Shown: piece by piece, positions 1 to 38,159 of the stretch
Layout: every line of letters begins with the position of its first letter
Position numbering within the stretch: position 1 is the first letter of the stretch
NCBI RefSeq assembly: GCF_029867415.1
Contig: NC_081182.1
Span: forward strand, 19,193,983-19,257,982
Direction: 5' to 3'
DNA: 64,000 nucleotides
Source: Vicia villosa
Lineage: Eukaryota > Streptophyta > Magnoliopsida > Fabales > Fabaceae
The notes under the pieces: model-generated
Told to the model about the DNA's origin: nothing
The model's input: only the letters and a program-made list of their open reading frames with translations
Database searches by the model: none
Position numbers and translations under genes: made by a program

Positions 1-403
1 TCTCATATGATTCAATCTTATCTTGTCTGCAATTATGCTTATTTGCTTTTGGCTCCACCAGCTTTTTCATTTTTGATGCTTCCTCACTCACCATTCTAAT
101 TTTCATATAAGAGTACTAGTACTTCATAATTGACATGGCTATGACTATGACTTTTTCTCTAATAATGGTTTGTAAGTTAGTTTTGGTAAGCAAAATTTTA
201 ACGGAGATGGTAACTTAATTAACCATCATTTTAACTTAACTTGATAGTTTCAAAAGTATACCTTAGTTAATTCACAAACACGCTCAACTCAATATAATTC
301 ACAAACACTCAGCTCTACATACATAGACACAACACAAACTCTTTATGTTATATAATCTTACATAAAGTTGTTAATGAATATCTAGTCACATATTAACCCT
401 AAA
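1..403. other. AT-rich intergenic sequence, no gene seen
   Basis: I see no open reading frame of note and no RNA gene. The last part, about 385-403, already resembles the sequence just downstream of the CCR-like final exon at 37020-37035 (both read 'atattaaccctaa'). Confidence 0.6.
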
Positions 404-485
404 ATGTGAGGACTGCGTACAAGCATAAGTAATACGCATGAAACCTTTCACGCGTAGTACTTATACTTGTACGCAATCCTCACAT
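404..485. repeat. Short inverted repeat derived from CCR-like 3' flank
   Basis: Arms at about 404-431 and 456-485 are reverse complements over about 28 bp with only a couple of mismatches, separated by a loop of about 24 bp. The left arm matches the segment just 3' of the CCR-like last exon at 37030-37060 ('gcgtacaagcataagtaa'). It lies directly beside the larger hairpin at 485-785. Confidence 0.85.
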
Positions 486-785
486 AATTGAACCTGCAGT
501 CAAAGGAACACGTAATGTACCAGTGCATGCTATGTTGACGAGGAGGATGTAAAACGGCGGTTGAGCTCTGCGAAACCGCATGAGTTTGGATTGGCCGATA
601 GTTTTTAAAATAGTGACAATAGCACGCACTGGTTCATCGCGTTACATATTGTTACTAATTCTAAAACTATCGGCCAATCCAAACTTATTTGCAGTTTCGC
701 ATAGCTCAACCGCCGTTTGACTTTCTCCTCGTCAACATAGCACGCATTGGTACATTACGTGTTCCTTTGACTGCAGGTTCAATTA
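485..785. repeat. Large CCR-derived hairpin (inverted duplication)
   Basis: Arms of about 136 bp (485-620 and 648-785) are reverse complements with scattered mismatches, around a 27-bp loop. The loop (621-647) is itself a diverged copy of 738-764, 'agcacgcantggt'. Each arm joins two coding pieces of the CCR-like family with no intron: one resembles the start of exon 2 (compare 8983-9018) and one resembles exon 5 (compare 37185-37330). A transcript would fold into a long, nearly paired stem. No TIR-type TSD was seen. It may be a foldback rearrangement or a young hairpin-RNA locus; neither is proven. Confidence 0.8.
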
Positions 786-839
786 TTAGCTGTCAGAATA
801 ATTAGACGTCTGAAGGAATTGTTTCTTTATTGTACACCA

Positions 840-1376
<537 letters not shown>

Positions 1377-2292
1377 TGTAGATGTTATTGATTGGCTGTA
1401 TTTTTTGGTAAAACAAATAGTGTCTTTATCATGTCAAACCTGGTGTCTTGACATGCATTGTTTTGAAGTCTTTCTTGTAGTTTTTCTTGTGCAGGCTTTT
1501 ACCTGATGTCAAGACCGATGTCATGACATCCGAAGCTGCTGTGTTTTACTATGTTCGCGTTATGATCTGTTAAGCCTCTGCGCGCCTCTTTTGGAAACTT
1601 TGGATATTGTTTTGTTTCAGAACAATGTTATGCGATGGATCTTTGCCTTATGGAAATGGTTTTAATTAGGTTTAAAACTGATATTGGATCCAAGGCCCAG
1701 CTGCTGCAAGGATATATATATAACAAATGAAGAAGCTGCTGCATGTATGTTTTTTTTAGGGTTTTGCCGTCCAGAAGTTTGTTGTGCTGTTCGTCTGTGT
1801 ACTAGATTTCTTGTAAGCCAAACAATCATCATGATGATTGTCTTGGTCTAGGCGTTTTTGTTTTGAGTTGTAAAAAGTACTCAAAGCTTTTAAGCACGAG
1901 TACTATTGTTCTTGATCGAAGCTTTTAAGCAAGATCAAGGTGTGTTTTTGAAGAGTGTCTTCTTTTGCTTTTCGTCTGTTAGTTTGTCATCACTGCTGTG
2001 ATTGAGGGGGAGTGAGTAGGAGCTCTGGTCTAGCAGTTTAGATTGAAGTTGCATTGGGTAGATATTAAGTGAAAGGCGTAATATTGAGTTGTATTACCTT
2101 GAATTAATATTACTTATAGTGGACTTCCTCCCTGGCTTGGTAGCCCCCAGATGTAGGTGTGTTTGCACCGAACTGGGTTAACAATTTTCCTGTGTTATTT
2201 ACTGTTTACTCTTTGTTCATTTGCTTGAAAACATTCAGATAGTGATGTCGTGACATCCTGTAAGACATCGCGTGTCTGAGTCCAGAATTTCA
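1377..2292 (+). repeat. 5' LTR of the Copia element
   Basis: It is 916 bp, starting TG and ending CA. It is followed directly by the primer-binding site. Near-identical to 7519-8435. It contains short palindromic 'gatgtc..gacatc' motifs near its 3' end. Confidence 0.95.
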
Positions 2293-2294
2293 AT

Positions 2295-2306
2295 TGGCAT
2301 CAGAGC
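2295..2306 (+). other. Primer-binding site (tRNA-Met type)
   Basis: TGGCATCAGAGC lies 2 nt after the LTR end. It differs by one base from the common plant Copia initiator-tRNA-Met primer site TGGTATCAGAGC. Confidence 0.85.
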
Positions 2307-2362
2307 AAGCACCCTGCCTGTTTTTTACTGGGTGAGATCTAGGGAAAGTATTTTCTGGTTCG

Positions 2363-4267
2363 ATGGACAAAGAAGGTGGTGGATTTATAATGAGACCACC
2401 CATTCTGGATGGTTCTAATTATGATTATTGGAAACCTCTCATGGTGGCTTTTCTGAAATCTGTGAACAGCAAAGCATGGAGAGCTGTGAACAAAGGATGG
2501 GAACATCCTGTTATTATTGATAAAGATGGCAACAAAACTTTTAAACCAGAGGAAGATTGGGACAAAGATGAGGAGGCATTGGCGCTTGGCAACTCTAAAG
2601 CCCTAAATGCTTTATTCAATGGAATTGACAAAAATATATTCAGACTGGTTCACCAGTGTGAACTAGCCAAAGATGTCTGGGATATCCTAAAGACTACTCA
2701 TGAGGGCACCTCCAAAGTGAAGATGTCAAGACTTCAACTGCTAACTACTAAATTTGAAAATCTAAGGATGAGGGACGATGAAAGTATTAAGGATTTTCAT
2801 ATGAATTTACTCGATATTGCTAATACCTCAGGAGCTTTGGGAGAAAAAATGTCTGATGAAAAGTTGGTGAGGAAAATCCTTAGATCCCTACCTAAGAGAT
2901 TTGATATGAAGGTCACAGCTATAGAAGAGGCACAGGACATCAGCCAAATGAAGGTAGAAGAGTTAATTGGATCTCTTCAAACTTTTGAGATGGGAATCAA
3001 TGAAAATTCTGAAAAGAAGAACAAAAGCATAGCTTTTGTGTCCAACTCTAGTGAAGAAGTAAAGGAAAGTAGAGAAGAGAATGTATCTGAATCTATAGCT
3101 ATGCTTGGTAAACAATTCAACAAAATTATGAGAAGGATGCATCAGAAGTCAAGACCTAATGTCAAGAACATCTCATCTGACATCAATGGATCTTATGACT
3201 CTGGCAGAGGAGCTAAACCAGAAGAAAAGTACAATCACAACAAAGGGATCCAATGTCATGGATGTGAAGGGTATGGACATATTAGAGCTGAATGCCCTAC
3301 CTATCTCAAGAAACAAAAGAAAGGATTGTCAGTCTCCTGGTCTGATGAAGATTCAGAGAGTGATTTTGAAGAAGAATCAGCCAAACATGTCACAGCCCTT
3401 ACTGGAATTTGCAATTCTGATGAAGATTCTAGGAAAGACGAGCTAACCTTTGAAGAACTGGCAGGTTCCTACAGAAAGTTGTGTATCAAATGTGCAGAAG
3501 TGTGTCAACAAGGTGAAAAGCAGAAGAAATACATAGCTCAGTTGGAGGCTGATAACAAAGAGCTTAATGAAACTATATCTGAACTGAATGGTGAAACTAT
3601 CCTGTTACAATCCAAACTTGATCAGATGTCAAAATCAGTAAAAATGTTGAACAGTGGCACGGATATGTTGGAGGAGATCTTGCAGGTTGGAAAAAGTTCA
3701 AGAGATATGTCTGGTATAGGTTTTGTTGGTGCAAAGAAATATGTCCAAGATAGTAGCAGAACTAAACCTGAAGCTGAGATGTTGAAGCCGATGTCAAAAC
3801 ATGTGACTCAACATCACGAGAAAGGTGAAATGAAGAGAAAGTTTCAAAGATGGAGATGTCATTACTGTGGAAGATTTGGACACATTAAGCCTTTTTGCTT
3901 CAGACTACATGGATATCCAGATCAAGCTGCTTCTTACAAACCTAAGCAGATCATGCCCATCCAGAAGCAACAATGGAAACCTAAAAATATGGCCTTAATA
4001 GCCCATACATCTCTTAGAGTTTCAGCCAAAGAAGACTGGTATTTTGATAGTGGATGCTCCAGACACATGACTGGACTCAAGAATCTGCTTGTTGATATCA
4101 AAAGCCATTCTACTAGTTATGTAACCTTTGGTGATGGAGCTAAAGGAGAAATCAAAGGAGTTGGAAAATTAGACTGTTCAGGAGTGCCAAGTTTAGAAGG
4201 TGTTTTGTTTGTCAAGGGCCTGACAGCTAACCTCATAAGCATCAGTCAACTGTGTGACCAAGGATAG
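2363..4267 (+). CDS. Copia gag and start of protease, ended by TAG
   Basis: This 634-residue frame holds a UBN2/retrotran_gag-type N-terminus (about residues 10-200) and a coiled, charged middle. It has two CCHC zinc knuckles, C-x2-C-x4-H-x4-C, near residues 298 and 498. The aspartic protease active site, WYFDSGCSRHMTG, is near residue 560. Gag would package the element RNA and the protease would process the polyprotein. The frame ends at TAG (4265-4267) inside the protease-integrase linker, after a LISISQLCDQG motif that normally continues without a break. The downstream pol frame is in the same reading phase, so this is a single nonsense codon, not a frameshift. The bases after the stop are CAA TTC. 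Confidence 0.9.
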   Translation: MDKEGGGFIMRPPILDGSNYDYWKPLMVAFLKSVNSKAWRAVNKGWEHPVIIDKDGNKTFKPEEDWDKDEEALALGNSKALNALFNGIDKNIFRLVHQCELAKDVWDILKTTHEGTSKVKMSRLQLLTTKFENLRMRDDESIKDFHMNLLDIANTSGALGEKMSDEKLVRKILRSLPKRFDMKVTAIEEAQDISQMKVEELIGSLQTFEMGINENSEKKNKSIAFVSNSSEEVKESREENVSESIAMLGKQFNKIMRRMHQKSRPNVKNISSDINGSYDSGRGAKPEEKYNHNKGIQCHGCEGYGHIRAECPTYLKKQKKGLSVSWSDEDSESDFEEESAKHVTALTGICNSDEDSRKDELTFEELAGSYRKLCIKCAEVCQQGEKQKKYIAQLEADNKELNETISELNGETILLQSKLDQMSKSVKMLNSGTDMLEEILQVGKSSRDMSGIGFVGAKKYVQDSSRTKPEAEMLKPMSKHVTQHHEKGEMKRKFQRWRCHYCGRFGHIKPFCFRLHGYPDQAASYKPKQIMPIQKQQWKPKNMALIAHTSLRVSAKEDWYFDSGCSRHMTGLKNLLVDIKSHSTSYVTFGDGAKGEIKGVGKLDCSGVPSLEGVLFVKGLTANLISISQLCDQG

Positions 4268-7057
4268 CAATTCAACTTCACTAAAGCTGAGTGTGTGGTT
4301 ACTAATGAAGAAAAGGAAGTAGTAATGAGGGGTGTCAGATCCAAAGATAACTGCTACTTGTGGGTGTCTCATGAATCCAGCTACTCTACTGTTTGTTCTA
4401 AAGAAGAAGAAGCAAAGCTGTGGCACCAAAAACTTGGTCACCTTCATCTAAGAGGTATGAAACGAATTATTTCTCTGGAAGCTGTAAGAGGAATTCCTAA
4501 GCTACAAATTGATGAAGGAAAAATATGTGGTGAATGTCAGGTAGGAAAACAAACCAGGATGTCACATCCAAAGGTTACACATCTGACTACTTCCAGAGTT
4601 CTTGAACTTCTACATATGGACTTGATGGGACCAATGCAAATAGAAAGTCTTGGAGGAAAGAAATATGCTTATGTGGTTGTGGATGACTACTCCAGGTACA
4701 CTTGGGTAAACTTCATCAGAGAAAAGTCAGATGTGTTTGATGTTTTCAAGGACCTATGTCAAAGAATTCAAAGAGAAAAAGAAAATGGTGTTGTGAGAAT
4801 CAGAAGTGATCATGGAAAGGAATTTGAGAATCAAAAGTTTGCTGAATTCTGTTCCTCTGAAGGAATACATCATGAATTCTCTTCCCCTATTACTCCACAG
4901 CAAAATGGGGTTGTTGAACGAAAGAATAGAACTATTCAAGAATCAGCAAGAGCTATGATCCATGCTAAGAATCTTCCTATCTACTTCTGGGCTGAAGCCA
5001 TGAATACTGCTTGTTATGTCCATAATAGAGTTACCTTAAGAAAAGGAACCTCTACCACCCTATATGAGATCTGGAAGGGAAGAAAACCCACTGTCAAATA
5101 CTTCCATGTGTTTGGTAGTAAGTGTTACATTCTTGCTGATAGAGATCACAGGAGGAAGATGGATCCCAAGAGTGACGAAGGAATCTTTCTGGGCTACTCT
5201 ACAAACAGTAGAGCCTATAGAGTATTCAACTCAAGAACCAAAACAATAATGGAATCCATAAATGTTGTGGTTGATGATGTTCACAATCAAGCAGATGTCA
5301 CAGAAGATGTCGGAACATTCTGGGATCTTACAGCAGAAGGGTCTACAAGAGAAGATGATTGCAGTCCCACTATCACAGAAGCTGAGACTGAACCCCCTAA
5401 CAAGAGTCCTTCTATAAGACTTCAGAAAGATCATCCTAAAGAACTTATTATAGGAGATCTCAACAGTGGAGTTATTACAAGATCAAGAGAAGTTGTCTCA
5501 AACTCTTGTTTTGTATCAAAGATTGAACCTAAAAATGTCAAGGAAGCATTAACAGATGAGTTCTGGATTAATGCCATGCAGGAAGAACTAGGCCAGTTTG
5601 AAAGAAATGAAGTATGGGAGCTGGTACCAAGACCTAAAGGTACTAATGTCATTGGAACTAAATGGGTTTACAAGAACAAGTCAGATGAACTGGGAACTGT
5701 TATCAGAAACAAAGCAAGGCTAGTTGCTCAAGGATACACCCAAGTTGAAGGAATTGACTTTGATGAAACCTTTGCCCCTGTTGCCAGACTTGAGTCAATT
5801 AGGCTATTGTTAGGGATTGCTTGTATTCTGAAATTCAAACTATACCAGATGGATGTGAAGAGTGCTTTCTTGAATGGATATTTGAATGAGGAAGTCTATG
5901 TAGAACAACCTAAAGGTTTTGCAGATCCAAACCACCCTGATCATGTATACAAATTAAGAAAAGCTCTTTATGGTTTGAAACAAGCCCCTAGAGCTTGGTA
6001 TGAGAGACTAACTGAGTTTCTTACTAGCAATGGATACAGGAAAGGAGGGATAGATAAAACTCTTTTTGTTAAAGATGAAGGAGGGAAGATTCTGATAGCT
6101 CAAATCTATGTGGATGATATTGTATTTGGTGGGATGTCAGACAAGATGACTAGACATTTTGTTGATCAGATGCAATCTGAATTTGAAATGAGTCTAGTTG
6201 GAGAATTAACCTATTTTCTTGGGCTGCAAGTCAAACAGATGGAAGACTCAATCTTTCTTTCTCAGAGCAAGTATGCTAGAAACATTGTCAAAAAGTTTGG
6301 AATGGAAAATGCTTCTCACAAAAGGACACCAGCACCTACCCATTTGAAGCTGACCAAAGATGAAAAGGGAACCAGTGTTGATCAAAGTCTATACAGAAGC
6401 ATGATAGGAAGTCTGCTGTATCTTACAGCCAGTAGACCTGATATTGCATTTGTTGTTGGGGTATGTGCCAGGTATCAAGCAGAACCCAAAACCAGCCATA
6501 TCAATCAAGTCAAGAGGATCCTGAAATATGTGAATGGTACTTGTGAATATGGAATGCTCTACTCTCATGGGTGTGAACCCATTCTCACGGGATATTGTGA
6601 TGCAGACTGGGCAGGAAGTGCTGATGACAGAAAAAGTACTTCAGGAGGATGTTTCTTCTTGGGTAATAATCTTATTTCATGGTTCAGCAAGAAACAAAAT
6701 TGTGTGTCTCTGTCCACTGCAGAAGCAGAATACATTGCAGCAGGAAGTAGTTGCTCTCAGCTTGTTTGGATGAAACAGATGTTATCAGAATACAATGTCA
6801 CACAAGATGTCATGACATTATATTGTGACAATTTAAGTGCCATTAACATTTCAAAGAATCCTATTTAGCATAGCAGGACCAAGCACATTGATATTAGACA
6901 TCATTACATTAGAGATCTTGTTGAAAATAAAACAATTGTCTTGGAACATGTTGCTACAAATCTTCAACTAGCTGATATTTTCACAAAAGCCTTGGATGCA
7001 AATCAATTTGAAAATATAAGAAGCAAACTAGGCATTTGTCTTTGTGAAGGATTATAG
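4268..7057 (+). pseudogene. Copia pol: integrase, reverse transcriptase, RNase H (one internal TAG)
   Basis: It continues in phase with gag. The integrase has an HHCC zinc region ([10 protein letters not shown] to CGECQVGKQ) and the D-D-E residues in [15 protein letters not shown] and GVVERKNR. The RT carries [27 protein letters not shown] and the catalytic YVDDIVFGG. RNase H shows GYCDADWAG and [11 protein letters not shown] second in-frame TAG (6866-6868) sits before HSRTKHIDIRHHYIR, cutting off the last 62 codons, which stay open to TAG at 7055-7057. The usual residue there is a non-stop codon in relatives, so this looks like a point mutation. Products would copy RNA to cDNA and integrate it in the nucleus. 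Confidence 0.9.
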
Positions 7058-7234
7058 CAATTAATTGGATGTGGGACCAGCACTATTTCTCTCTTGACTG
7101 TCAAGTATACTCTGCTGATGGTGGTGATGATCATACTGTTGGGAGTGATGACTGAGGAGGGTGAGGATGCTGATGCCCGGACTAGTAGCTCCAATGATGT
7201 GGAGATGAGTACGGAGAATGATTCTGAAGTGTAA
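7058..7234 (+). other. Possible readthrough extension of pol with a membrane-like segment
   Basis: The pol stop at 7055-7057 is TAG followed by CAA TTA, the leaky-stop context known from tobacco mosaic virus and reported for SIRE1. In phase beyond it, 58 codons stay open to TAA (7232-7234). They contain a hydrophobic run (LLMVVMIILLGVM, about 7112-7150) followed by an acidic, Ser-rich tail. In SIRE1 the env-like frame lies here. Only a short piece or an unrelated stretch is present in this copy. Function is inferred only. Confidence 0.5.
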
Positions 7235-7503
7235 ATCTTCATCTGCTGTTTGGCTTCTTTTGTGGCTAGAAAGGGGGAGAAGTGATAGATGATGTTGATG
7301 GTTTGGTTGTTGGTGTGGTTGCTGTTATTCTGTTTGGTTCCTGAATTGGTTGTTGGTGTGGCTGCTGTTATTTTGTTTGGTTCGTTGGATGTACTATGAT
7401 TAATCAAGCAAGATGTTATTGTGTCGGATCCTTGTTTCTATTGGCTGCTGTTTGTACTCTGATCTCTGATGGTATCATCTATTATTGTTTTAGCCAAAAA
7501 TTC

Positions 7504-7518
7504 GCCAAAGGGGGAGTT
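7504..7518 (+). other. Polypurine tract
   Basis: GCCAAAGGGGGAGTT directly precedes the 3' LTR, as expected for the plus-strand primer of an LTR retrotransposon. Confidence 0.9.
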
Positions 7519-8435
7519 TGTAGATGTTATTGATTGGCTGTATTTTTTGGTAAAACAAATAGTGTCTTTATCATGTCAAACCTGGTGTCTTGACATGCAT
7601 TGTTTTGAAGTCTTTCTTGTAGTTTTTCTTGTGCAGGCTTTTACCTGATGTCAAGACCGATGTCATGACATCCGAAGCTGCTGTGTTTTACTATGTTCGC
7701 GTTATGATTTGTTAAGCCTCTGCGCGCCTCTTTTGGAAACTTTGGATATTGTTTTGTTTCAGAACAATGTTATGCGATGGATCTTTGCCTTATGGAAATG
7801 GTTTTAATTAGGTTTAAAACTGATATTGGATCCAAGGCCCAGCTGCTGCAAGGATATATATATATAACAAATGAAGAAGCTGCTGCATGTATGTTTTTTT
7901 AGGGTTTTGCCGTCCAGAAGTTTGTTGTGCTGTTCGTCTGTGTACTCGATTTCTTGTAAGCCAAACAATCATCATGATGATTGTCTTGGTCTAGGCGTTT
8001 TTGTTTTGAGTTGTAAAAAGTACTCAAAGCTTTCAAGCACGAGTACTATTGTTCTTGATCGAAGCTTTTAAGCAAGATCAAGGTGTGTTTTTGAAGAGTG
8101 TCTTCTTTTGCTTTTCGTCTGTTAGTTTGTCATCACTGCTGTGATTGAGGGGGAGTGAGTAGGAGCTCTGGTCTAGCAGTTTAGATTGAAGTTGCATTGG
8201 GTAGATATTAAGTGAAAGGCGTAATATTGAGTTGCATTACCTTGAATTAATATTACTTATAGTGGACTTCCTCCCTGGCTTGGTAGCCCCCAGATGTAGG
8301 TGTGTTTGCACCGAACTGGGTTAACAATTTTCCTGTGTTATTTACTGTTTACTCTTTGTTCATTTGCTTGAAAACATTCAGATAGTGATGTCGTGACATC
8401 CTGTAAGACATCGCGTGTCTGAGTCCAGAATTTCA
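7519..8435 (+). repeat. 3' LTR of the Copia element
   Basis: It is 917 bp and near-identical to 1377-2292. Differences by eye include C/T in 'gatctgtt', A/C in 'tgtactagat', T/C in 'aagctttt' and 'gttgtatt', one fewer T in a T-run, and one extra TA. Confidence 0.95.
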
Positions 8436-8611
8436 ATGGAGTTTTAAAAAAATGCTATATTTGTAAATTATGTGTGAACTATGTCAGAGATGTATAGATG
8501 ATGGTCAACTATGTTTGACCTATGTCCACAAACTACAAAATACGTCCCTCTGATACGCCACTTTATTTCATTTTCACTCACTATAAAGAAAACAAACTCT
8601 AGGCCTAGTAC

Positions 8612-9436
8612 CAAAAATTCTATATGCAACATTAGCATTAGTGGGTGACTCTGACAATGGTCTCATAACATGAGTAGGGCAAGTGCTAATTAAATCAAGC
8701 GCATCTCTTTTTGCAATTTTCACTGCATTCTTTTCTGTCATTGTCTTGGCGTAGCAATACCACCTCTGAAAGATATGCAACGTATTAGTTTATTTATTTA
8801 CATAAAAATCACTTTATATGTAAAAATAAAATCTCAACAACCTTATATTTTAGGCAGAAATCTCCATCAGACCAACTTAACTCATTAATGGGTCCAGTTT
8901 TTGAAAAATAGAGATTTTTTATTATGGCAGCCCCCGATGAAACATACACTATTCGTTTGACATTAGCAATTTTACAAGCCTGAAGTACATTGCATGTTCC
9001 TTGGATCGCAGGTTCAATTACTTCCTCCTACAATATTAAAGAAAAATGAGAATTACAATCAAACTAGTATGCAAAAGAAAAAAAACATTTTAAATATTTT
9101 TTTGGTTACCAAAGGATTTTTAACGTGAGCAAACGGAATAGGACAAGCAAGGTGGAAAACACCTCTGCATCCCACAACTGCCGGGAGAATAGAGCTATAA
9201 TCCAAAATATTTGACTTAAAGAGTCGAAGCTGATTTGGAAAAGAAGTCATTATTTTGCCTAATAGTAGACATTTAGTAAGACAGTCTGGTTGTGGTACTT
9301 TAGTGGTCGCATGTACGTAATATTCCTTCGATAGCAATAAATTGAGTAGCCAGGAACCAATAAATCCATCTGCGCTAATGACACGGAGAATATTGGTAGT
9401 GCTACTACCAGATGGGGAGTTCGATGATGATGCCAT
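8612..9436 (-). pseudogene. CCR-like SDR gene fragment, copy A (exons 1-3)
   Basis: Three exons of a cinnamoyl-CoA reductase-like protein (extended SDR, DFR/CCR branch) can be read on the minus strand. Exon 1 is 9436-9110, starting MASSSN; exon 2 is 9027-8842; exon 3 is 8765-8612. All have GT donors and AG acceptors. Exon 1 keeps GFIGSWLLNLLLS and GVFHLACP, but the first Gly of the GxxGxxG dinucleotide motif is Ser. Exon 2 reads NVKRIVYVSS; exon 3 has the YxxxK catalytic pair in WYCYAK. Exons 4-5 are absent: downstream comes the Copia element, then the duplicated module. CCR enzymes reduce hydroxycinnamoyl-CoA with NADPH in lignin synthesis; substrate cannot be told here. Without its C-terminus it is very unlikely to work. 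Confidence 0.8.
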
Positions 9437-9587
9437 TTTCCTGCAATACAATTGAATAAAGCATTTCAAATATGATTTAAAAAACTAGAAAAAAAAATAA
9501 TTGGATTAATTGCAATGAAGAAGGAGAAGATAGAATTGAAATATTAACCAAAAAAAATAATTGAAAAGACAAGAGTTAACCAAGCTT

Positions 9588-11142: not shown

Positions 11143-13253
11143 TTGGTTTGTTTCCAAATGCAGCGTGGTGGTTGGACGAAAGTTTCGCACAGAAAGCGTT
11201 TTGCCCCGAGGTGGGATACGTTTCCTTTCGGTGGGCGTAATCGCAACGCTTCTGACAGGAATGGAGAGGTAACTTCTCTGTTCGTTTCTGAGTTCCCGGA
11301 GGCGACTACTGCAAGGGATTTGTTTGAACTTTTTGGTTGTTCTGGGAATGTGGTTGAGGTGGCGATCTCTCCGAGGCGAAATTCTTTGGGGAAAAGGTTC
11401 GGGTTCGCACGTTTTGTGGAGGTTACAGATGGAAGAATGTTGGCGGTTCGCTTGGATAATGTTATTATGGGTGGAAAGAAGATTCATGTTAATTTGCCTA
11501 GGTTCAACAGGGATCAGTTTAGGGTATCAAACTTTTCTGGCGGTCCAGTTAGGGGCAACCTGGGTTCCTACGGGGCTCGGGATTCAGGTGTGAACAAGCC
11601 TCAGGTCAGGCAGGTGTTTGTGAAGAAAAACCGCTCGTTCGCAGAAGCTGTTTGCCCTATTCTTTCACCTACCGGCGTGAAGGCGAAGGGTAACATTCCT
11701 TTGGTATATCAATCCTCTGCCGAGATCAGAGGTAGATTAGCTAAAGCGTTTGTCGGCAAAGTTTGTGTTCCGGGGTCGGCTCACAGGATTCAAACCTACT
11801 TTGAAATGGAAGGTGTGTATGCGATCAAAGTCTCTCCTTTGGGCAGTAACTCTTGTTTGTTAGAGGAATTAGAGGAAGGTTTTATAGAAGACTTAATCGG
11901 CGAAGGTGAGGTTTGGTGGAAGAGTTGGTTCTCGGAGATTAAGAAATGGGAGGCGGTTTCGGTGGAAACGAATAGGGACGTCTGGCTTAGTATTTATGGC
12001 ATTCCGCTTCACGCTTGGAGTCCTAATTTTTTTATCTCTTTAGCGGAATGCTGGGGAAGGTTTATTTGCATTGATGAAGCCACGGCGAAAGGAGATGTCT
12101 TCGACGTTGCAAGAATTTTGGTTAATCTGCCCATCGCTTCTGTGGTTCCCGTTTCTATCACTTCTTCTATCGATGGGCTGGACTTCGTGTTGTTTATCAG
12201 AGAGGAGGCTCAGGGTCAGTTTCGAATTCCGCTCAAGTCTTCTATGGGCAAGTCATTGGCCAGTAGTTCTTCTGACTCGGGGGATGTTTGGCTGAATTAG
12301 AACGAGGGAGTGGAGGGAAGCGTGTCTGATAGCATCGAGCAGTTCTCCGATGAGAATTCGCTGGACGGAAATGGCATTGCTGAAGGTGGAGCGAAGAGGA
12401 ATTCTGTTGAGGACAACTCTATCGCAGCTGCGGGTTTTGTGAACTCGAAGGGCTCTCATGCTGGTAAGGTTGGACAGTCTGCGACTCAGGCTTTAGGCCT
12501 TTTCGATTCTGCTGTTAATAATTTCAGGAATCTTCCGCGGGCAGCTGAGCGCCGGAAGGCTTTATCCGGCAATACAAACCTGTCTTCAAATGGAGTGCAG
12601 CCAGCGATTGCTGCGTCTTCTGGTCACAGTGCGAAGGATGAGGAGACGGTTGTGGAACCATGTTTACCGCTTGTTATGCAGAATGGGCTGAAGGTTCGGG
12701 GTAGTGCTAAAGGTTTTTTGGCCAGGGAAAGTCCTATTTGTTCTGGAAGTGATGCATCAGCCGGTATTGGTCATGTTATGGGAGGGCAACACGAGACTGG
12801 TTCTAAGGAGGTTGGGCCAATTTCATCTTCTCAATCCAGGGTGCTGTGTTCTTTGGGTGGATTGGGGTTACATTCAGGACATAAAAAGGTGCGGTACAGG
12901 AGGGTGGAAGATATTGGGTTCAAATCTCTAAGATGTAGGCAGGGGGGCGGAAGTTTGTTTCAAAACCTTCGGGGCAGCATCTTTGCAAAACAGTAGCGGC
13001 ACAAACTAGGGACAGTTTTGGTTCGGTGTGCTACGGGAATCACCCGGAGGAATCGGATATTTGTAGGAACAATGGTAGGCAGTGGGATTTCCTTAAAAAG
13101 GATGTTGGAGAGAAATTATGGGAGGCTATAGTGGCATTGGGAGTTGTTGATGAGAAGGGGAGGAACAATCTTGTCTGTAGAATTGAGGAGTTGGAAAAGG
13201 GGCGAGAGGCATTATTGGATAGAAGGAAGGAGCACACCAAACCGGGACAATGA
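11143..13253 (+). pseudogene. LINE ORF1 (RRM, nucleic-acid binding), interrupted
   Basis: The main open part, 11143-12300, has a likely start at 11158 (MQRGGWTK). It contains an RRM-like fold (SLFVSEFPEATTARDLFELF, then GKRFGFARFV) at about residues 45-120 and a plant-LINE DUF4283-like middle. An in-frame TAG at 12298-12300 is followed by 228 more codons in the same phase (12310-12996), ending in TAG. The C-terminal piece is in another frame (13026-13253), with a charged IEELEKGREALLDRR helix. So ORF1 has one nonsense codon and one frameshift or stop near 12996. The protein would coat LINE RNA. Confidence 0.8.
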
Positions 13254-16200
13254 TTATCGGTTCTTTGAATATTAGAGGGGGAGCTAATGCGCTCAAGAGA
13301 AGGCGTATTAGTACTTTGATTGACAAAGGAAATGCGGATATTTTTTTTCTTCAAGAAACAAAAATCACCAATATGGATGAGAACTTGGCCAAGAGTTTGT
13401 GGAGACATCCGGAGATAAATTTTTCCTTTTCAAACTCGGTGGGTAGATCGGGCGGTTTGATTACTATGTGGAAGAAGAGTAATATGGACGTTCTTCTTAG
13501 TTTTAAAGGTGAAGGCTATTTGGGTTTGAAACTTTGTTGGAAGGATGATATTTACTACGTAGTGAATGTTTATTCATCTTGTGATTTACGTAAGAAGAAT
13601 GCTTTGTGGGACAATTTACTTGACTTGAAGGATAAGTATAGTGATGGGGAATGGATAATAGGAGGGGATTTCAATGCAACCAAAAATGGTAGAGAAAGAA
13701 AAGGGAGAGGAAGTGGTTGTATCAAGAAGGAGATGGAGCTTTTTGAGGAGTTCATCTTCAAGAGTTCTTTGGTTGATATTCCGTGCAAAGGGAAGAAATA
13801 TTCGTGGTTTAGTGGTGACGGTAAGTCTATGAGCCGGATAGACCGTTTCTTATTATCTAACACCGTCGTGAATAGGTGGGAGGTAGTTGGTCAATTCATA
13901 GGGGATAGAGATGTTTCGGATCATTGTCCCATATGGATCATGACGGATAAATATAATTGGGGGCCGAAACCATTCAAATTTAATAATGAATGGTTTTCTT
14001 TCGATTCTTTTATTCCTTTTGATGAAAAAGAGTGGAAATCTTTGAAGGTGGAAGGAAGAGGCGACTTTGTTTTGAAAGAAAAGCTTAGAATCCTAAAAGA
14101 CAAACTCAAAAAGTGGAATTCCGAAGTCTTTGGTAAAATAGATTTGGAGATAGCGGAGGGAGTTGCCGAGATTAACCATGCCGATGATAGGTTAGCCTCT
14201 TTATCTAACTCTTTTTCTCTTAATTTTCTTGATGAGAATGTGGATATAAGAAAAAAGGCAACTAGTTGTTTTTGGCGGAACTTGAGAATTAAAGAGAACA
14301 TGCTTCTTCAAAAATCTAGATTGAAATGGCTTAAGGAGGGAGATTCCAATAGCGGTCTTTTTCACAAAGTCATGAAGAATAGAAGAAGACTTAATCATAT
14401 TGGTCCGATTTGTGCATCGGGAAGAATGGTGGAGTCGGTGGAGGATGTGAGGGAGGAGGTGTTTAAACACTTCGGGAACAAATTCATTGAAGCGGAGGAG
14501 GATAGACCGGTGTTAGAAGGCATTTCTTTCAATTCAATAAGTAGGGAAGAAGCGATGGATATTGAGAAACCTTTTCTAGAAAGCGAGATAAAGGAGGCGG
14601 TGTGGGAATGTGGTGATTCTAAGAGCCCGGGGCCGGACGATTACTCTTTCCTTTTCTTTAAAAAGTGTTGGAATGTTGTCAAAGAAGATTTTATCAAGTT
14701 CTTCAATTACTTCTACCTTGGTAGACCCATTGCTAAGGTAATCACTTCATCTTTTTTAACTTTAATTCCGAAATCTAATAATCCTATTGGATTAGACGAT
14801 TATAGGCCCATTTGCTTAGTGGGATGCCTTTACAAAGTGGTGGCGAAGCTTTTGGCGGGGAGATTAAAAGGGGTTCTTAATTCTATTATTTATCCGTGTC
14901 AAAGTGCTTTTGTCCCCGGTAGGTACTTGTTGGACGGTGTGGTGGTGGCTAATGAGGTAGTGGATTATGCGAGAAAGGAAGGAAAAGAGTGCATTTTATT
15001 TAAGGTAGATTTTGAAAAAGCATATGATAAGGTGAGTTGGAAATTCTTGAGATACATGTTAACTAAAATGGGTTTTGGCGAGAGGTGGTTGAAATGGATG
15101 GACTCTCTCGTGTTTAAAAGCAACATGTCCGTTTTAGTTAATGGATGTCCTACGAAGGAGTTCGAGGTGAGTAGAGGGTTGAGACAAGGAGATCCTCTTT
15201 CCCCCTTTCTTTTTGTTTTAGTTGCGGAGGGCCTCTCGGGAATTGTTAAAAAATCTATTGAGATGGGGGATTTTCAAAGTTTCAAGATTAATGGTAATTG
15301 TCCGGTTGAGATGCTTCAATTCGCGGATGACACTTTAATTGTGGGTGAGAGTAATTGGAAACACGTGTGGGCTTTGAGAGCGGTGCTTCGGCTTTCGAGC
15401 TTGTGTCGGGTCTTGGAATTAATTACCAAAAAAGCAAGTTGATTGGGATTAATTCTAATCATCACTTTTTGGAAGCGATTTCTCAATTCTTTTCTTGTAA
15501 ATTGGAAGAGAGCAATTTTTATTTCCTTGGAATCCCCATTGGGTTCAATCCGAGGAAAGAAGCTACTTGGAGTCCTCTTTTGTCTAAGTTAAAGAATCGT
15601 TTGGAGGGGTGGTCGAACCGTTTTTTAAACTTGGGTGGTAGGATTACTCTTCTCAAGTCCGTGCTAAGCTCTTTGGCCATTTTTACCTTATCTTTTTACA
15701 AAATTCTGAGAAAAGTGGCAAAGAAGATTACAAGTATTCAAAGTAAATTTTTATGGGGAGGCGTTGAGGAAAGAAGGAAGATCCATTGGGTTAGGTGGGA
15801 GGAGGTCACGCTTCCTTTGCATAAAGGGGGGTTAGGAGTCAAAAATTTATTCTCTTTTAATTTGGCTCTTCTTAACAAGTGGAGATGGCAGATTATTCAA
15901 GGGCAAGATACTTTGTGGTTTAAAGTTTTGAATTCTCGGTATGGTGACGTTACTTCCAAAATGTTCGGGAGTGAAGGAGCTAATAAAGCCCTTTCAAAGT
16001 GTTCTTTTTGGTGGAAGGATATCTTAAAAATTAATTCTTCTTCTTCTCTTGATCCAATTGTTGATTTGTGTAGGTTTTCCGTCCATAATGGTTTTTCCAC
16101 TCCGTTTTGGGAGGCGAGGTGGTTGGGTGATTTTACTTTGAAAGATTTGTTCCCGGATTTTTATGCCATGACCCGGTTGAAGTTTGTTTCGGTGGCGGCC

Positions 16201-19054: not shown

Positions 19055-22000
19055 TGTCGCACCCCAATTTTTGACCCACGCATTTTTATTTATTTTTGAC
19101 TTGTCGCATTTCATTTCATCGTTCATACATTGCATCGTTGCATTTGTTTTGAAAAATTAGACTTTTATTAAAATCGACAAAAAAAAATAGCGTTTCGTTT
19201 TGCATTTTTCGCGTATTTTTATCTTTAGTTTAATTAAGTTTATAAAAGATAATATAATAAAAAATAAATTTAGATAGTTTAGTTTAGATTAATTTTTGGT
19301 TTTATATTGAGCTTTTTGGTATCATTTTATTTTTAGTTTAGATTTATTTTAGTTTTAATATCATTTTTATTTTTATTTTAGATTCAATTTAGAATTAATT
19401 TTAGTTTTGATAGTATTTTAGATTTAAATTAGAATAATTTAAAATCTTAATATCACTTTAGATCATTTTTTATTTATTATCATTAACATTTTTATTTTAT
19501 GTTATTAGTTTTTATCATTGTTATTACTAAATTCTTTTAGAAAAAAATATTAAACAAAACAAAAGCCTTTGCTTTAGGCCCATTTACATTTGGTCTTAGC
19601 TTTTTTTTTTTTACAAAAAAAAGACAAGGTAATCCAGAAAAAGTCAAACAAAAAAATTGTCTTTCTCCTTCCTCTTTCCCACGCCTCTGCTCCATCAAGT
19701 CTGCTCCAAAACCTGCAAAATCAGAGCAACAATAAGCCAAAACTTTCACCATTATAATCAATACAGAGCCTGCACAAGAAAGCAATAGAACAGAGCAACA
19801 AGTATGTTCAAATTCCATCTAATTTCCCCCCAAAAGCTTACTTCAAGCTATCTATAAATCAGACTTCTCATTCACAGCAAGAAAAAAAAACCGATTCAGA
19901 GAAGAAAAAGCCACAAAAATCATAGAAAACACTTAACCGAATCTTCAGTTCCCTCAAATATTCAACCCAACCACATCGCACCACACATCCCTCGCTATAA
20001 ACGGAACCACAAGCATCAGTTCAGCAACGTACAACACAACAAATGCAGCACATTCACACAGAAGCGGAATCATAGCGCAAACTCGCATCGGAGAAGAGGA
20101 AGGAAGTGAAGAACGACAACAGAGTAAAGATCATACCTGATTTATTTCTTGTTTCCTATTTTGCTTTAATCTTCAAATATTGATGTAATTTGTAATCCCT
20201 GATTGAAAGATAATGAAATCGGGGAAGTTAGGGTTTTGAAAGGGGCAAAGGGTACCGATCTGTCTTCTATGTTTGTTTTGCGTAAGTGTTTGCGGGCTAT
20301 GTTGTTGGTATATGTGTGCGAGAAAGAGACGAGAAAATGGAGCTTCGAAGCTCCTTCCATGGTGTTTCGTTTCTTTTAAAACAGCGAGAGATGGCGAGAT
20401 GAGGAAGAGGATTGAGTCCTCAGAATCTCGTTTCCTCTTTTAATGTTTCTCTTTCTTAATATTAACCTCTTGTTTTATTTTTATTTATTTTTAATTTAAT
20501 TTGAAAGAATCAATTAAAATATTTTGTGTTTGTTTAAAGCATGCGCACATTTGTTTCCTTTCTTTTAAGACATTTAGTTTTCTTCTTTTTTTAGTTATTA
20601 ATAATCCAATTTGATTTTTGTTATTAAGTTTTAATAATTGTTTAATAAATAAATTCTAAATGACTTAGTGAACTCCTTTTTCTTATATTTAAAAAATCAA
20701 ATTTTAATTAAAAATATTTTAAGGATGAGATACGTTTCTCTTCCATTTTTTATAGGAATTGTTTTGTTATTATTTTGATTCTAGGTGCATCATCATGTAG
20801 TTTTATTTGTTTATTTATTTTAGCTTTTAAATAAAAAGAGAGAGTAAGTATTTTTTAAAAAGAATATACTTTCTAATAGAAATTAAGTTTTTTTAATGAA
20901 AAATAACAAAAAAAAGATTTTCTTTTTCAAATGAAATAAAAACTCCAAAACAATTTAAACAATCGAATTGAGTTTTGAGTTTTAATGGTTGAAGAAGGGT
21001 TTGTACGTACTTGTACAAGTTGTTCTTTAAGCGTTTAGGCGATGGCCGTTAAGCCATTGTTCGAATGTTTAGATTCCATTAAAGACTCCATAAAATTTAA
21101 ATGCTTTCTTTTAATAATTAAATCAAATTTAGTCGATAATGGATGAATCAAGAGGGGTTTGTACGTACTTGTACAAGTTGTTCTTTAAGCATTTAGGCGA
21201 TGGCCGTTAAGTCATTGTTTGGATGTTTAGACTCCATTAAAGACTTCTTAAAAATTGATTTGTCTCACCTTTTTACAAAACACTTTCTTTTAATCAAATC
21301 ATTTTTAGTCAATAACGGATAATGAAGAAGGGTTTGTACGTACTTGTACAAGTTGTTTTTCAAGCGTTTAGGCGATGGCCGTTAAGCCATTGTTTGAGCG
21401 CGTAGACTCCGTTAAAAGACTTCGTAAACTCGATTTAGCAAATACTCTTTCAAGTATTTTAAGCGATGGCCGTTAAGCTTTTGTTTAAATATTTGGATCC
21501 AATTAAATATCTTTCAACTCTTCAAATCAATCTTTTTTCATAACCTACGAGGGGGTTGTACGTACTTGTACAATTTTCTCTTCAAGCATTTAGGCGATGG
21601 CCGTTAAGCCTTTGTTTAAATGTTTGATTTATCTTAACAAACAAACTTCAAATTTATTCACACCTTTTAATTTTAAAACTTTATTTCATAAAACGAGACA
21701 CTTAGTTAAAATTCAAATGCAATTCTATTTCCACATGTGAAGATTTAACATCTTCCACTCGAATGCGATGATGGCCGAAATCATGTCTTATCTTGATTTA
21801 GTTATCCATTCTTGTAGTGATATCATATCCATGTGCGCGTAGTATTTCCATTTGAAAGCGATCGAGTACCTCTCGCTAAAATCAATCAACAAAACTTTTC
21901 GTAGTTTGCCCGAACTACGATTGCTCTGACTTTCCCATTGCACTAGGGAATACGTAGGCACAAGATACAAATGTCTTGGCGAGCACAATAATAAAAAATC

Positions 22001-22309
22001 TTATTTTTGTTTCTTTCTTTTTTCCAACCTAATAAATAACGCAAGTAGATATAAGCTAACAATTAATCACGAGATTAACTAAATGGGTCCCATCGAGTAC
22101 GATGGAGGTGAGGGGTGCTAATACCTTCCCCTTGCTTAACCGACTCCCGAACCTAAATTTGGTTGCGATGACCGTCTTATCCTGTTTTCTTTTTCTTCGT
22201 GGGTTTTATCGATATTTTCCCTTTCCTTTTGGAATAAATAAAGTTCGGTGGCGACTCTGTTGTACTTCGAACGCGTGAAAACGCGTCGAGTCACATTTTT
22301 ACCGCTACA
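19055..22309 (+). repeat. 5' LTR of the Ogre-like element
   Basis: 3255 bp. It contains an AT-rich first half, then five spaced units with TTGTACGTACTTGTACAA (see 20990-21625). No protein-coding role is evident; apparent small frames are shared unchanged with the 3' LTR. Confidence 0.95.
20990..21625 (+). repeat. LTR-internal tandem subrepeats with palindromic core
   Basis: About five units, spaced roughly 100-175 bp, share 'gggtttgtacgtacttgtac' then 'ttaggcgatggccgttaag'. Cores are near 21001, 21160, 21332, 21553, with a shortened unit at about 21445. The same array lies in the 3' LTR at 29424-30059. Confidence 0.9.
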
Positions 22310-22333
22310 GAAAGTGGCGACTCTGCTGGGGAA
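22310..22333 (+). other. Primer-binding site of the Ogre-like element
   Basis: TGGCGACTCTGCTGGGGA starts 6 nt after the LTR end. Ogre elements are described as using tRNA-Arg; this match is from memory and not verified. Confidence 0.7.
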
Positions 22334-23101: not shown

Positions 23102-24634
23102 ATGGCAGATCAAGAGCAACACAATGCTGAAGTCAGAATGGAGATTGAAGATTTGAAGTCAGGAATGACTAAGCTCACTGAAATGTTGCAAGTTCTGATT
23201 GCTAGAGGAGAACCACCTCAAAGGACTGTCATTCAAGAAATCACCGATGATGTTGAAGACCCTATTCCTGTTCAGAGGCCCGCCACTACTTGGCCTGAGT
23301 TTGGTTTACCTCCAAATTATTCTCCGCCTCACGCCACTGCTGCTATGTTGGGTCAAACTTCACGACCAATGTTCCAAGCTCCGATCATGACTGAGTCTCA
23401 GCCAATTGTGCACACTGCTGCCCAGACCGCTTATGGGAATCCTCTCTTTGAATACCAGCCTGGAGACCATCAAAGTGAAAGCCAAAAAGAAGCTGGTGAT
23501 ATTGATGAAGTCAAAGAACAATATCAAATTCTGGAGAAAAGACTAAGAGCTATGGAAGGCGCTGATTACTTTGGGGTCGCTGCTGAAAACATGTGCTTAG
23601 TTTCTGATTTGGTCATACCTGCCAAATTCAAAACTCCCGAGTTTGAAAAGTACAAAGGGTACACTTGTCCAAGAAGTCATTTGACCATGTACTACCGCAA
23701 GATGGCTGCCTATACCAAGAACGACAAATTGTTGATTCACTGTTTTCAAGATAGTCTGACTGGCGCTTCACTGAAGTGGTATATGGGACTGGAGAAGAGT
23801 CGTATCCATTGCTTTCAAGATCTGACTGATGCTTTCATGAAACAGTACAAGTATAATCTAGACATGGCTCCTGATCGCCGTCAATTACAAAATATGTCCC
23901 AAAGGGAAAGAGAGTCCTTCAAGGAGTATGCTCAACGCTGGAGAGAACTAGCTTCTCAAGTGGAACCTCCTTTGGCAGAAAAGGAATTAACTGGAATGTT
24001 CATGGATACTCTCTCGCCTATCTACTGGGAGAAGATGATTGGAAGTGTGTCCTCCAACTTTACTGACTTGGTGACCATTGGTCAAAGGCTAGAAGAGGGA
24101 ATCAAGAATGGCAAGGTTGCCAATGCTGCTGAATCTTCTAATGGTGCAAAGAAACCTTATGGAAACTTCCATAGGAAAAAGGAAGGAGAAACAAACGTTG
24201 TGAGCGACGAAGGAAGAAGACCTCGTCAAAGGACTAATAACTATGATCAACCAATTGTAGTTACTGTTGCTCCTGTGACTAAGGTTCCGCAAGTTCAAGC
24301 TGCTCGACCTCAGGCTGCTAACCCGAATCAGACTCGTAATAGGATTGACTTCGATCCTATTCCAATGACTTATACTGAGTTATATCCAGCTTTGGTCCAC
24401 AAAGGGTTGATTACAACGAGATCTATGCCTCCGCCTCGAAACCCTCTCCCTGAAGGTTTCAGATCTGATCTTCATTGCGCTTTTCATCAAGGTGCGGCAG
24501 GCCATGATCTGGAAAGATGTTTCCCTCTGAAAGAAAGAGTTCAAGAGTTGGTTAGAACGAAGCTGCTCACTTTCAAAGACATCAATCCCAATGTTGTCGA
24601 CAATCCTTTGCCTGAGCATGACAAAAATGGCTGA
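23102..24634 (+). CDS. Gag protein of the Ogre/Tat-like element
   Basis: 510 residues, starting MADQEQHN. The N-terminus is a coiled segment; residues about 60-85 read WPEFGLPPNYSPPHA, typical of legume Ogre/Tat gag. The retrotransposon gag domain is at about residues 160-345 (FKTPEFEKYKG, CPRSHLTMYYRKMA, DSLTGASLKWY, FKEYAQRWRELA). A zinc-binding-like motif CAFHQGAAGHDLERC is near residue 458, C-x2-H-x5-H-x4-C, unlike the usual CCHC. The frame is intact from ATG to TGA, which fits a young copy whose gag may be made, while pol must come from another element. Confidence 0.9.
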   Translation: MADQEQHNAEVRMEIEDLKSGMTKLTEMLQVLIARGEPPQRTVIQEITDDVEDPIPVQRPATTWPEFGLPPNYSPPHATAAMLGQTSRPMFQAPIMTESQPIVHTAAQTAYGNPLFEYQPGDHQSESQKEAGDIDEVKEQYQILEKRLRAMEGADYFGVAAENMCLVSDLVIPAKFKTPEFEKYKGYTCPRSHLTMYYRKMAAYTKNDKLLIHCFQDSLTGASLKWYMGLEKSRIHCFQDLTDAFMKQYKYNLDMAPDRRQLQNMSQRERESFKEYAQRWRELASQVEPPLAEKELTGMFMDTLSPIYWEKMIGSVSSNFTDLVTIGQRLEEGIKNGKVANAAESSNGAKKPYGNFHRKKEGETNVVSDEGRRPRQRTNNYDQPIVVTVAPVTKVPQVQAARPQAANPNQTRNRIDFDPIPMTYTELYPALVHKGLITTRSMPPPRNPLPEGFRSDLHCAFHQGAAGHDLERCFPLKERVQELVRTKLLTFKDINPNVVDNPLPEHDKNG

Positions 24635-27488: not shown

Positions 27489-30400
27489 TGTCGCACCCCA
27501 ATTTTTGACCCACGCATTTTTATTTATTTTTGACTTGTCGCATTTCATTTCATCGTTCATACATTGCATCGTTGCATTTGTTTTGAAAAATTAGACTTTT
27601 ATTAAAATCGACAAAAAAAAATAGCGTTTCGTTTTGCATTTTTCGCGTATTTTTATCTTTAGTTTAATTAAGTTTATAAAAGATAATATAATAAAAAATA
27701 AATTTAGATAGTTTAGTTTAGATTAATTTTTGGTTTTATATTGAGCTTTTTGGTATCATTTTATTTTTAGTTTAGATTTATTTTAGTTTTAATATCATTT
27801 TTATTTTTATTTTAGATTCAATTTAGAATTAATTTTAGTTTTGATAGTATTTTAGATTTAAATTAGAATAATTTAAAATCTTAATATCACTTTAGATCAT
27901 TTTTTATTTATTATCATTAACATTTTTATTTTATGTTATTAGTTTTTATCATTGTTATTACTAAATTCTTTTAGAAAAAAATATTAAACAAAACAAAAGC
28001 CTTTGCTTTAGGCCCATTTACATTTGGTCTTAGCTTTTTTTTTTTTACAAAAAAAAGACAAGGTAATCCAGAAAAAGTCAAACAAAAAAATTGTCTTTCT
28101 CCTTCCTCTTTCCCACGCCTCTGCTCCATCAAGTCTGCTCCAAAACCTGCAAAATCAGAGCAACAATAAGCCAAAACTTTCACCATTATAATCAATACAG
28201 AGCCTGCACAAGAAAGCAATAGAACAGAGCAACAAGTATGTTCAAATTCCATCTAATTTCCCCCCAAAAGCTTACTTCAAGCTATCTATAAATCAGACTT
28301 CTCATTCACAGCAAGAAAAAAAAACCGATTCAGAGAAGAAAAAGCCACAAAAATCATAGAAAACACTTAACCGAATCTTCAGTTCCCTCAAATATTCAAC
28401 CCAACCACATCGCACCACACATCCCTCGCTATAAACGGAACCACAAGCATCAGTTCAGCAACGTACAACACAACAAATGCAGCACATTCACACAGAAGCG
28501 GAATCATAGCGCAAACTCGCATCGGAGAAGAGGAAGGAAGTGAAGAACGACAACAGAGTAAAGATCATACCTGATTTATTTCTTGTTTCCTATTTTGCTT
28601 TAATCTTCAAATATTGATGTAATTTGTAATCCCTGATTGAAAGATAATGAAATCGGGGAAGTTAGGGTTTTGAAAGGGGCAAAGGGTACCGATCTGTCTT
28701 CTATGTTTGTTTTGCGTAAGTGTTTGCGGGCTATGTTGTTGGTATATGTGTGCGAGAAAGAGACGAGAAAATGGAGCTTCGAAGCTCCTTCCATGGTGTT
28801 TCGTTTCTTTTAAAACAGCGAGAGATGGCGAGATGAGGAAGAGGATTGAGTCCTCAGAATCTCGTTTCCTCTTTTAATGTTTCTCTTTCTTAATATTAAC
28901 CTCTTGTTTTATTTTTATTTATTTTTAATTTAATTTGAAAGAATCAATTAAAATATTTTGTGTTTGTTTAAAGCATGCGCACATTTGTTTCCTTTCTTTT
29001 AAGACATTTAGTTTTCTTCTTTTTTTAGTTATTAATAATCCAATTTGATTTTTGTTATTAAGTTTTAATAATTGTTTAATAAATAAATTCTAAATGACTT
29101 AGTGAACTCCTTTTTCTTATATTTAAAAAATCAAATTTTAATTAAAAATATTTTAAGGATGAGATACGTTTCTCTTCCATTTTTTATAGGAATTGTTTTG
29201 TTATTATTTTGATTCTAGGTGCATCATCATGTAGTTTTATTTGTTTATTTATTTTAGCTTTTAAATAAAAAGAGAGAGTAAGTATTTTTTAAAAAGAATA
29301 TACTTTCTAATAGAAATTAAGTTTTTTTAATGAAAAATAACAAAAAAAAGATTTTCTTTTTCAAATGAAATAAAAACTCCAAAACAATTTAAACAATCGA
29401 ATTGAGTTTTGAGTTTTAATGGTTGAAGAAGGGTTTGTACGTACTTGTACAAGTTGTTCTTTAAGCGTTTAGGCGATGGCCGTTAAGCCATTGTTCGAAT
29501 GTTTAGATTCCATTAAAGACTCCATAAAATTTAAATGCTTTCTTTTAATAATTAAATCAAATTTAGTCGATAATGGATGAATCAAGAGGGGTTTGTACGT
29601 ACTTGTACAAGTTGTTCTTTAAGCATTTAGGCGATGGCCGTTAAGTCATTGTTTGGATGTTTAGACTCCATTAAAGACTTCTTAAAAATTGATTTGTCTC
29701 ACCTTTTTACAAAACACTTTCTTTTAATCAAATCATTTTTAGTCAATAACGGATAATGAAGAAGGGTTTGTACGTACTTGTACAAGTTGTTTTTCAAGCG
29801 TTTAGGCGATGGCCGTTAAGCCATTGTTTGAGCGCGTAGACTCCGTTAAAAGACTTCGTAAACTCGATTTAGCAAATACTCTTTCAAGTATTTTAAGCGA
29901 TGGCCGTTAAGCTTTTGTTTAAATATTTGGATCCAATTAAATATCTTTCAACTCTTCAAATCAATCTTTTTTCATAACCTACGAGGGGGTTGTACGTACT
30001 TGTACAATTTTCTCTTCAAGCATTTAGGCGATGGCCGTTAAGCCTTTGTTTAAATGTTTGATTTATCTTAACAAACAAACTTCAAATTTATTCACACCTT
30101 TTAATTTTAAAACTTTATTTCATAAAACGAGACACTTAGTTAAAATTCAAATGCAATTCTATTTCCACATGTGAAGATTTAACATCTTCCACTCGAATGC
30201 GATGATGGCCGAAATCATGTCTTATCTTGATTTAGTTATCCATTCTTGTAGTGATATCATATCCATGTGCGCGTAGTATTTCCATTTGAAAGCGATCGAG
30301 TACCTCTCGCTAAAATCAATCAACAAAACTTTTCGTAGTTTGCCCGAACTACGATTGCTCTGACTTTCCCATTGCACTAGGGAATACGTAGGCACAAGAT

Positions 30401-30743
30401 ACAAATGTCTTGGCGAGCACAATAATAAAAAATCTTATTTTTGTTTCTTTCTTTTTTCCAACCTAATAAATAACGCAAGTAGATATAAGCTAACAATTAA
30501 TCACGAGATTAACTAAATGGGTCCCATCGAGTACGATGGAGGTGAGGGGTGCTAATACCTTCCCCTTGCTTAACCGACTCCCGAACCTAAATTTGGTTGC
30601 GATGACCGTCTTATCCTGTTTTCTTTTTCTTCGTGGGTTTTATCGATATTTTCCCTTTCCTTTTGGAATAAATAAAGTTCGGTGGCGACTCTGTTGTACT
30701 TCGAACGCGTGAAAACGCGTCGAGTCACATTTTTACCGCTACA
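27489..30743 (+). repeat. 3' LTR of the Ogre-like element
   Basis: 3255 bp, same length as the 5' LTR with a constant 8434-bp offset. Identical in every part compared by eye. Confidence 0.95.
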
Positions 30744-30748
30744 GTTAA

Positions 30749-37184: not shown

Positions 37185-38128
<944 letters not shown>

Positions 38129-38159
38129 CTGAAAGATATGCAACGTATTGGTTTATTTA

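Follow-up and report, generated by a model that had tools for sequence, protein, structure and literature searches.

A double hairpin made of CCR-like gene pieces in Vicia villosa, probably the product of a DNA rearrangement

Two adjacent strong hairpins, made of inverted pieces of a broken CCR-like, lignin-enzyme-like gene copy, were identified on contig 3 of Vicia villosa. The DNA analyzed, here called the window, comprises 64,000 nt (contig positions 19193983-19257982), and all other coordinates without a contig refer to it or to the named locus. As the best account of the hairpins we propose that a CCR-like copy, already broken, was rearranged at the DNA level; it is probably not a selected gene now. 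Most probably the locus is an inert remnant, from which incidental siRNAs may arise. Two neighboring inverted repeats had been predicted at this place from the sequence, and both were recovered at 404-485 (hairpin 1) and 484-786 (hairpin 2).

The arms of hairpin 1 (404-443 and 446-485) were found alike at 36 of 40 sites, corresponding to 90% complementarity over 40 nt. The original prediction of a 28-bp arm fits an unbroken run of 28 pairs on the minus strand with G-U pairs counted, while the arms themselves extend over 40 nt. In its minus-strand fold hairpin 1 has 38 base pairs, including 3 G-U pairs, one mismatch and a loop of 4 nt, and its total of 82 nt has the size of a pre-miRNA. Hairpin 2 is larger, with arms at 484-621 (138 nt) and 647-786 (140 nt) that are identical at 126 of 138 sites when aligned end to end with one 2-nt gap. 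It is composed of the repeat pairs 484-580/690-786 (97 nt, 93%) and 580-621/647-688 (42 nt, 88%). The folding of 400-790, suggested beforehand as a check, yielded -269.5 kcal/mol for the plus strand compared to a mean of -93.6 (sd 5.5, z -32) for shuffled sequences, with 0 of 100 shuffles folding as well; the minus strand yielded -279.9 kcal/mol. The double-hairpin structure is far beyond chance. A stable fold-back, as in plant MIRNA precursors, and a long near-perfect inverted repeat, as in inverted-repeat siRNA loci, are both present. Pooled over both hairpins, 16 of 178 sites (9.0%) are different between the arms, and because of these differences a fold-back read or an assembly artefact is unlikely. 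Post hoc it was observed that all 12 arm differences of hairpin 2 lie outside its outermost 39 sites (484-522), which carry none. Inverted repeats of at least 60 nt within 600 nt were found at three places in the window, namely the hairpin locus, an AT-run palindrome (901-1024) and, with two pairs, an element at 43836-44056. The hairpin locus is the sole gene-derived one among them.

The predicted composition of exon 2, exon 5 and 3' flank turned out to be right when the hairpins were matched to two CCR-like copies of the window, termed A and D. Piece A (389-443, plus strand) is CCR-like 3' flank in the local orientation of the family, with 404-443 serving as left arm of hairpin 1. Its stretch 389-442 is 89% identical over 54 nt to 37023-37073 of copy D and also matches the loci L005, L006 and L008. 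The right arm (446-485, minus strand) is an inverted copy of this flank, A', as seen from its agreement with the complement of 404-443. The left arm of hairpin 2 (484-621, minus strand) consists of an exon-2 piece followed by an exon-5 piece with a 28-bp internal deletion. The loop (622-646, plus strand) contains extra exon-5/C-terminal sequence, which is found in the right copy only and aligns to exon 5 of copy D. On the right side an exon-5 piece (619-741), with the gene on the minus strand, shares the 28-bp deletion with the left arm, and an exon-2 piece (746-786, minus strand) matches L003 and copy A. For exon 2, identities were 94% over 36 nt between 750-785 and L003 (contig 3, 19128270-19128305) and 86% to 8985-9020 of copy A; for exon 5, 676-741 was 82% identical to 37256-37321 of copy D and 629-678 was 80% identical to 37181-37230, the rest of this exon toward its 3' side. 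The stretch 619-671 also aligns to L020. Both arms therefore hold pieces of the same family in opposite orientation, as in an inverted duplication of gene-family pieces. According to the alignment, the 28 bp of exon 5 missing from both arms were kept in copy D, L005, L006 and L010 (contig 7). At two places a CpG is common to both arms and L010 and absent from D, L005 and L006, and two further arm CpGs occur in none of the four. From the deletion and this CpG pattern, the source copy probably branched off before the divergence of D, L005 and L006. A protein search for a gene with an exon 5 of the relic type gave 4 candidates, none at an E-value of up to 10.

A spliced transcript had been considered as possible source of the intron-free joint, which was not borne out. 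The exon-2 piece of the hairpin corresponds to about nt 8-43 of exon 2. In copy A this exon starts at ~9027 after an AG (splice site by reading) and the part represented in the hairpin is 9020-8985. In copy D exon 5 starts at ~37359 (splice site by reading), and the hairpin piece begins at ~37321, ~38 nt inside. With the joint inside both exons and not at an exon-exon junction, it is unlikely that the source was spliced. A CCR-like retrocopy made from a spliced transcript would account for exon 2 being joined to exon 5 without an intron; with the position of the joint, the absence of exons 3-4 and the lack of any A or T run of at least 6 in 301-900, we regard it as extremely improbable.

A rearrangement of DNA, in contrast, would account for the order of the pieces. 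On the plus strand of copy D and its relatives, A (3' flank) is followed by C' and B' (exon 5), and exon 2 comes later in the gene; the hairpin locus shows A, A', B, C, C', B'. A'-B-C (444-621, minus strand) is the reverse complement of C'-B'-A, the result expected when part of a tandem pair A-C'-B'-A-C'-B' is flipped, and hairpins 1 and 2 would therefore represent the two ends of one inverted segment. From this comparison with copy D we infer that both hairpins go back to a single inverted segment within two relics arranged in tandem. In a first step a CCR-like copy lost its middle part, by which exon 2 became fused to exon 5, and also 28 bp inside exon 5, as shown by the presence of both features in both arms. 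The fused relic with its 3' flank would then have been doubled in tandem and an offset segment, comprising the 3' part of unit 1 and the 3' flank of unit 2, would have been flipped, as suggested by the piece order; alternatively, template switching during break repair may have given the same order. The two ends of the flipped segment would consequently have become the centers of both hairpins, and the arms then drifted to the 9% difference, with no sign of pairing having been kept in tests of little power. Tandem doubling followed by inversion is one of several orders of events which give the same layout.

Doublings of both kinds were observed at L020 (2030-6680), where the 3' flank of a CCR-like copy occurs twice in tandem and a different stretch is accompanied by an inverted duplicate. 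The tandem doubling (4668-4986/6364-6680) is 96% identical over 319 bp, with the 3' flank at 4715-4765 and 6409-6459, and the inverted doubling (2030-2419/6031-5611) is 86% identical over 421 bp. Such events therefore occur in the CCR-like family. Among the five longest inverted pairs per locus in the fetched relatives L014-L021 (8 loci, 66.5 kb), pairs of at least 92% were found in L014 and L020 and pairs of 70-75% in L015 and L016, with none in the other four loci.

A 46-nt direct repeat brackets the hairpin locus, with its left copy at 276-321 and its right copy at 856-901 (both plus strand, 87% identical); homology to a paralogous segment at 32814 begins inside the right copy, at 864. This repeat would fit break repair with template switching. 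Insertions of that type and tandem duplications likewise form mosaics of nearby pieces in both orientations with a flanking direct repeat; for the hairpin locus such a mechanism is putative. Direct repeat and palindromic layout would also suit a transposable fold-back element or MITE carrying gene pieces in its arms. However, a whole-genome DNA search with 404-785 (2.03-Gb assembly, best candidates scored) revealed no second copy of the hairpin. The best candidates were the hairpin locus itself (both strands) and one 36-nt exon-2 match, L003, and no other exon 2::exon 5 fusion was among them. Dispersed copies and shared ends, as known for such elements, were not seen among these candidates, nor was there a clear target-site duplication, with one 5-nt match between 381-410 and 781-812. 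Moreover, the homology of the left arm to the 3' flank of the gene extends beyond the hairpin edge, to 389. We consider a mobile element of this kind quite improbable.

Beside the hairpin the window contains five CCR-like pieces, all on the minus strand, and the nearest public proteins are Vicia villosa CCR-like models. Copy A (8608-9463; CCR-like piece 9436-8610), in which exons 1-3 are open, was the neighbor of the hairpin before a copia element (1377-8437, LTRs 99.2% identical) inserted between the hairpin and the 3' part of this copy. Copies B (34280-33492) and C (17529-17080) and a fragment at 10779-10657 are further pieces. Copy D (37023-38134; CCR-like piece 38134-37134) is the best relative of the hairpin arms in the window, and its reading agrees, by eye, with the public Vicia villosa protein model P0006. 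This model was built on the incomplete copy D (37134-38134), with exon 5 in a shifted frame at its end. A segment of ~7.9 kb with copy D (36797-44723) is doubled ~63.7 kb leftward on the same contig; the duplicate corresponds to L014 3062-10000 plus L015 1-801, in pieces that are 96.7, 98.1 and 93.3% identical. Other elements of the window are a LINE-type open frame (13250-15442) that encodes an endonuclease and a reverse transcriptase domain and a large LTR retrotransposon with LTR-like ends at 19055-22310 and 27489-30744 and a Retrotrans_gag frame at 23102-24634 between them. Because its ends of 3256 bp each are 100% identical, this retrotransposon inserted very recently.

The original prediction of a young locus fits poorly with the divergence of the arms. 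Copies A and B differ by ~5% (44 of 943 sites or CpG pairs; 94% identity with gaps), and the LTRs of the neighboring copia element by 0.4% (4 of 898), or 0.8% with gaps. The arm difference of 9.0% is ~2 times the former and >10 times the latter, and by this rough clock the inversion would be older than the duplication of A and B.

The double hairpin could in principle yield small RNAs, of whose production the sequence alone gives no sign. The near-perfect stems would, if transcribed, be cut by Dicer-like enzymes of the DCL3/DCL4 type, and a fold of such size is likely a Dicer substrate if transcribed. We analyzed the 16 arm differences, 10 transitions and 6 transversions, for traces of selection on pairing. 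The transitions leaving a G-U pair numbered 4 on the plus and 6 on the minus strand, an even split within chance. For comparison with neutral drift, 16 random changes were placed on a perfect hairpin in 120 simulations, of which 111 (plus strand) and 81 (minus strand) equaled or exceeded the fold strength of the real sequence. These simulations take one arm as starting point, disregard the 2-nt gap and have low power. Neither an excess of G-U-saving changes nor a fold beyond drift, features which would be supportive, not strictly defining, was found in these low-power tests. The pairing pattern looks like ordinary drift. The hairpin region contains 22 CpGs, a number reached or exceeded by 14 of 1273 sliding windows; the observed/expected ratio of 1.27 is less exceptional, with 170 of 1273 windows. 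Changes between the arms were found at 3 of 11 CpG pairs and 13 of 156 other sites, compared to 4 of 18 and 40 of 925 between copies A and B.

Potential targets were searched by comparing all 21-mers of 404-786 with 46 of 52 loci, the 6 loci overlapping the hairpin or copy D being excluded. The scanned loci were the best 30 of 142 CCR-like matches and a few others, and several of the 46 overlap each other. The best match per locus had 0 mismatches in 2 loci, 1 in 5, 2 in 3, 3 in 12 and at least 4 in 24. With four shuffled hairpins 2 mismatches were reached in no locus and 3 in 5, 0, 2 and 2 loci. Ten of the 46 loci were found at 0-2 mismatches, of which nine, some of them overlapping, are incomplete CCR-like copies: the relic L003 (with L019 containing it) and the D-type copies L005, L006, L007, L008, L014, L020 and L021. 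For these copies, exons 1-2 or other parts could not be located. The arm 21-mers had 0 mismatches to L003, 1 to D-type copies and 2-3 to others. The tenth locus, L026, was rejected as target, its 2-mismatch match (573-594) being non-coding and ~1.3 kb upstream of the first exon of a CCR-like gene. For the full-length CCR gene of contig 5 (P0012; pieces 2293915-2296411) the best match, in exon 2, had 3 mismatches, a level also reached by shuffles, which gave 2, 6 and 3 such hits in one scan. Among the scanned loci, the suggested targeting of CCR-like mRNAs elsewhere would find its best partners in incomplete copies. With no selected pairing detected and at least 3 mismatches per 21-mer to full-length CCR in the scanned loci, a putative functional small-RNA role is unsupported. 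If transcribed, the locus would at present give incidental siRNAs matching mainly itself and other incomplete CCR-like copies.

Length and strength of the stem, together with the close 21-mer matches to L003 and the D-type copies, would be compatible with a working hairpin-RNA locus, transcribed and giving DCL3/DCL4-type siRNAs that silence the CCR-like cluster of contig 3 in cis and trans; in maize, miRNA-like folds were described to coincide with more small RNAs and methylation (PMC10760457). We judge this rather unlikely, as changes are not biased toward the preservation of pairing and the best partners are incomplete copies. The 22 CpGs by themselves do not suggest long dense methylation, but with CpG decay in the arms at least as high as that separating copies A and B they do not decide for either reading.

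Less probable still is a young MIRNA gene with hairpin 1 as precursor aimed at CCR-like 3' ends. Size and minus-strand fold of hairpin 1 are suitable, its best 21-mers are one mismatch away from the 3' flank of copy D, and MIR1444 provides a published precedent for inverted duplication of a target family (PMC5223194). However, the stem is nearly perfect, good partners are located in incomplete copies, and the Rfam matches to MIR859, mir-466 and MIR156 stay far below gathering scores, for which reasons we consider it very improbable. The best match had 37.3 bits compared to a gathering score of 130, and assignment to a described Rfam MIRNA family was rejected. Such matches carry little weight because the repeat hairpin at 43836-44056 scores higher and fails as well; of its 27 Rfam matches, all below gathering score, 26 are to miRNA families (best 6.2e-16). 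The region of this repeat hairpin (43711-44180) is MITE-like with AT-rich ends and may itself relate to repeat-derived miRNAs. Finally, the offset inversion might have made a two-hairpin precursor, one part MIRNA-sized and one siRNA-sized, which is expressed and acts to silence the CCR-like cluster of its own chromosome. We think this unlikely; if true, the locus would be a catchable intermediate between a gene relic and a small-RNA gene.

The inverted-duplication route to plant MIRNA loci has been described (PMC5223194, PMC3707012), and the original prediction that inverted repeats of gene-family pieces form a fold of the type thought to give rise to plant MIRNA and siRNA loci is supported. 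Arabidopsis MIR161 and MIR163 and poplar MIR1444, the latter from PPO genes, similarly contain opposed pieces of the target family folding back, and partial gene copies in the genome are a further likeness (PMC5223194). In contrast to these, the hairpin locus is a candidate, has two hairpins from one putative offset inversion and an exon 2::exon 5 fusion in its arms, and among the scanned CCR-like loci no full-length target pairs well. Loci of the miR822, miR839 and miR869 kind, which are DCL4-dependent, also have inverted repeats highly similar to a gene family (PMC3707012); according to this 2013 review, none of the DCL4-dependent miRNAs was described in legumes by then. Among the papers listed on CCR hairpins, siRNA or phasiRNA and on Vicia villosa small RNA, none evidently concerns such a locus, and the term "small RNA" does not occur in the main text of the Vicia villosa assembly paper (PMC10659084).

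The observation of the double hairpin stands, with the small-RNA interpretation as a possibility. A single rearrangement within a tandem gene cluster in decay could give two adjacent strong hairpins without an RNA step, and the inverted-duplication model takes such hairpins as the starting material for new MIRNA genes. If it gives no small RNAs, the locus would warn against calling a small-RNA gene from fold strength and similarity to genes alone. If small RNAs are found, it would represent an early case, datable against its relatives.
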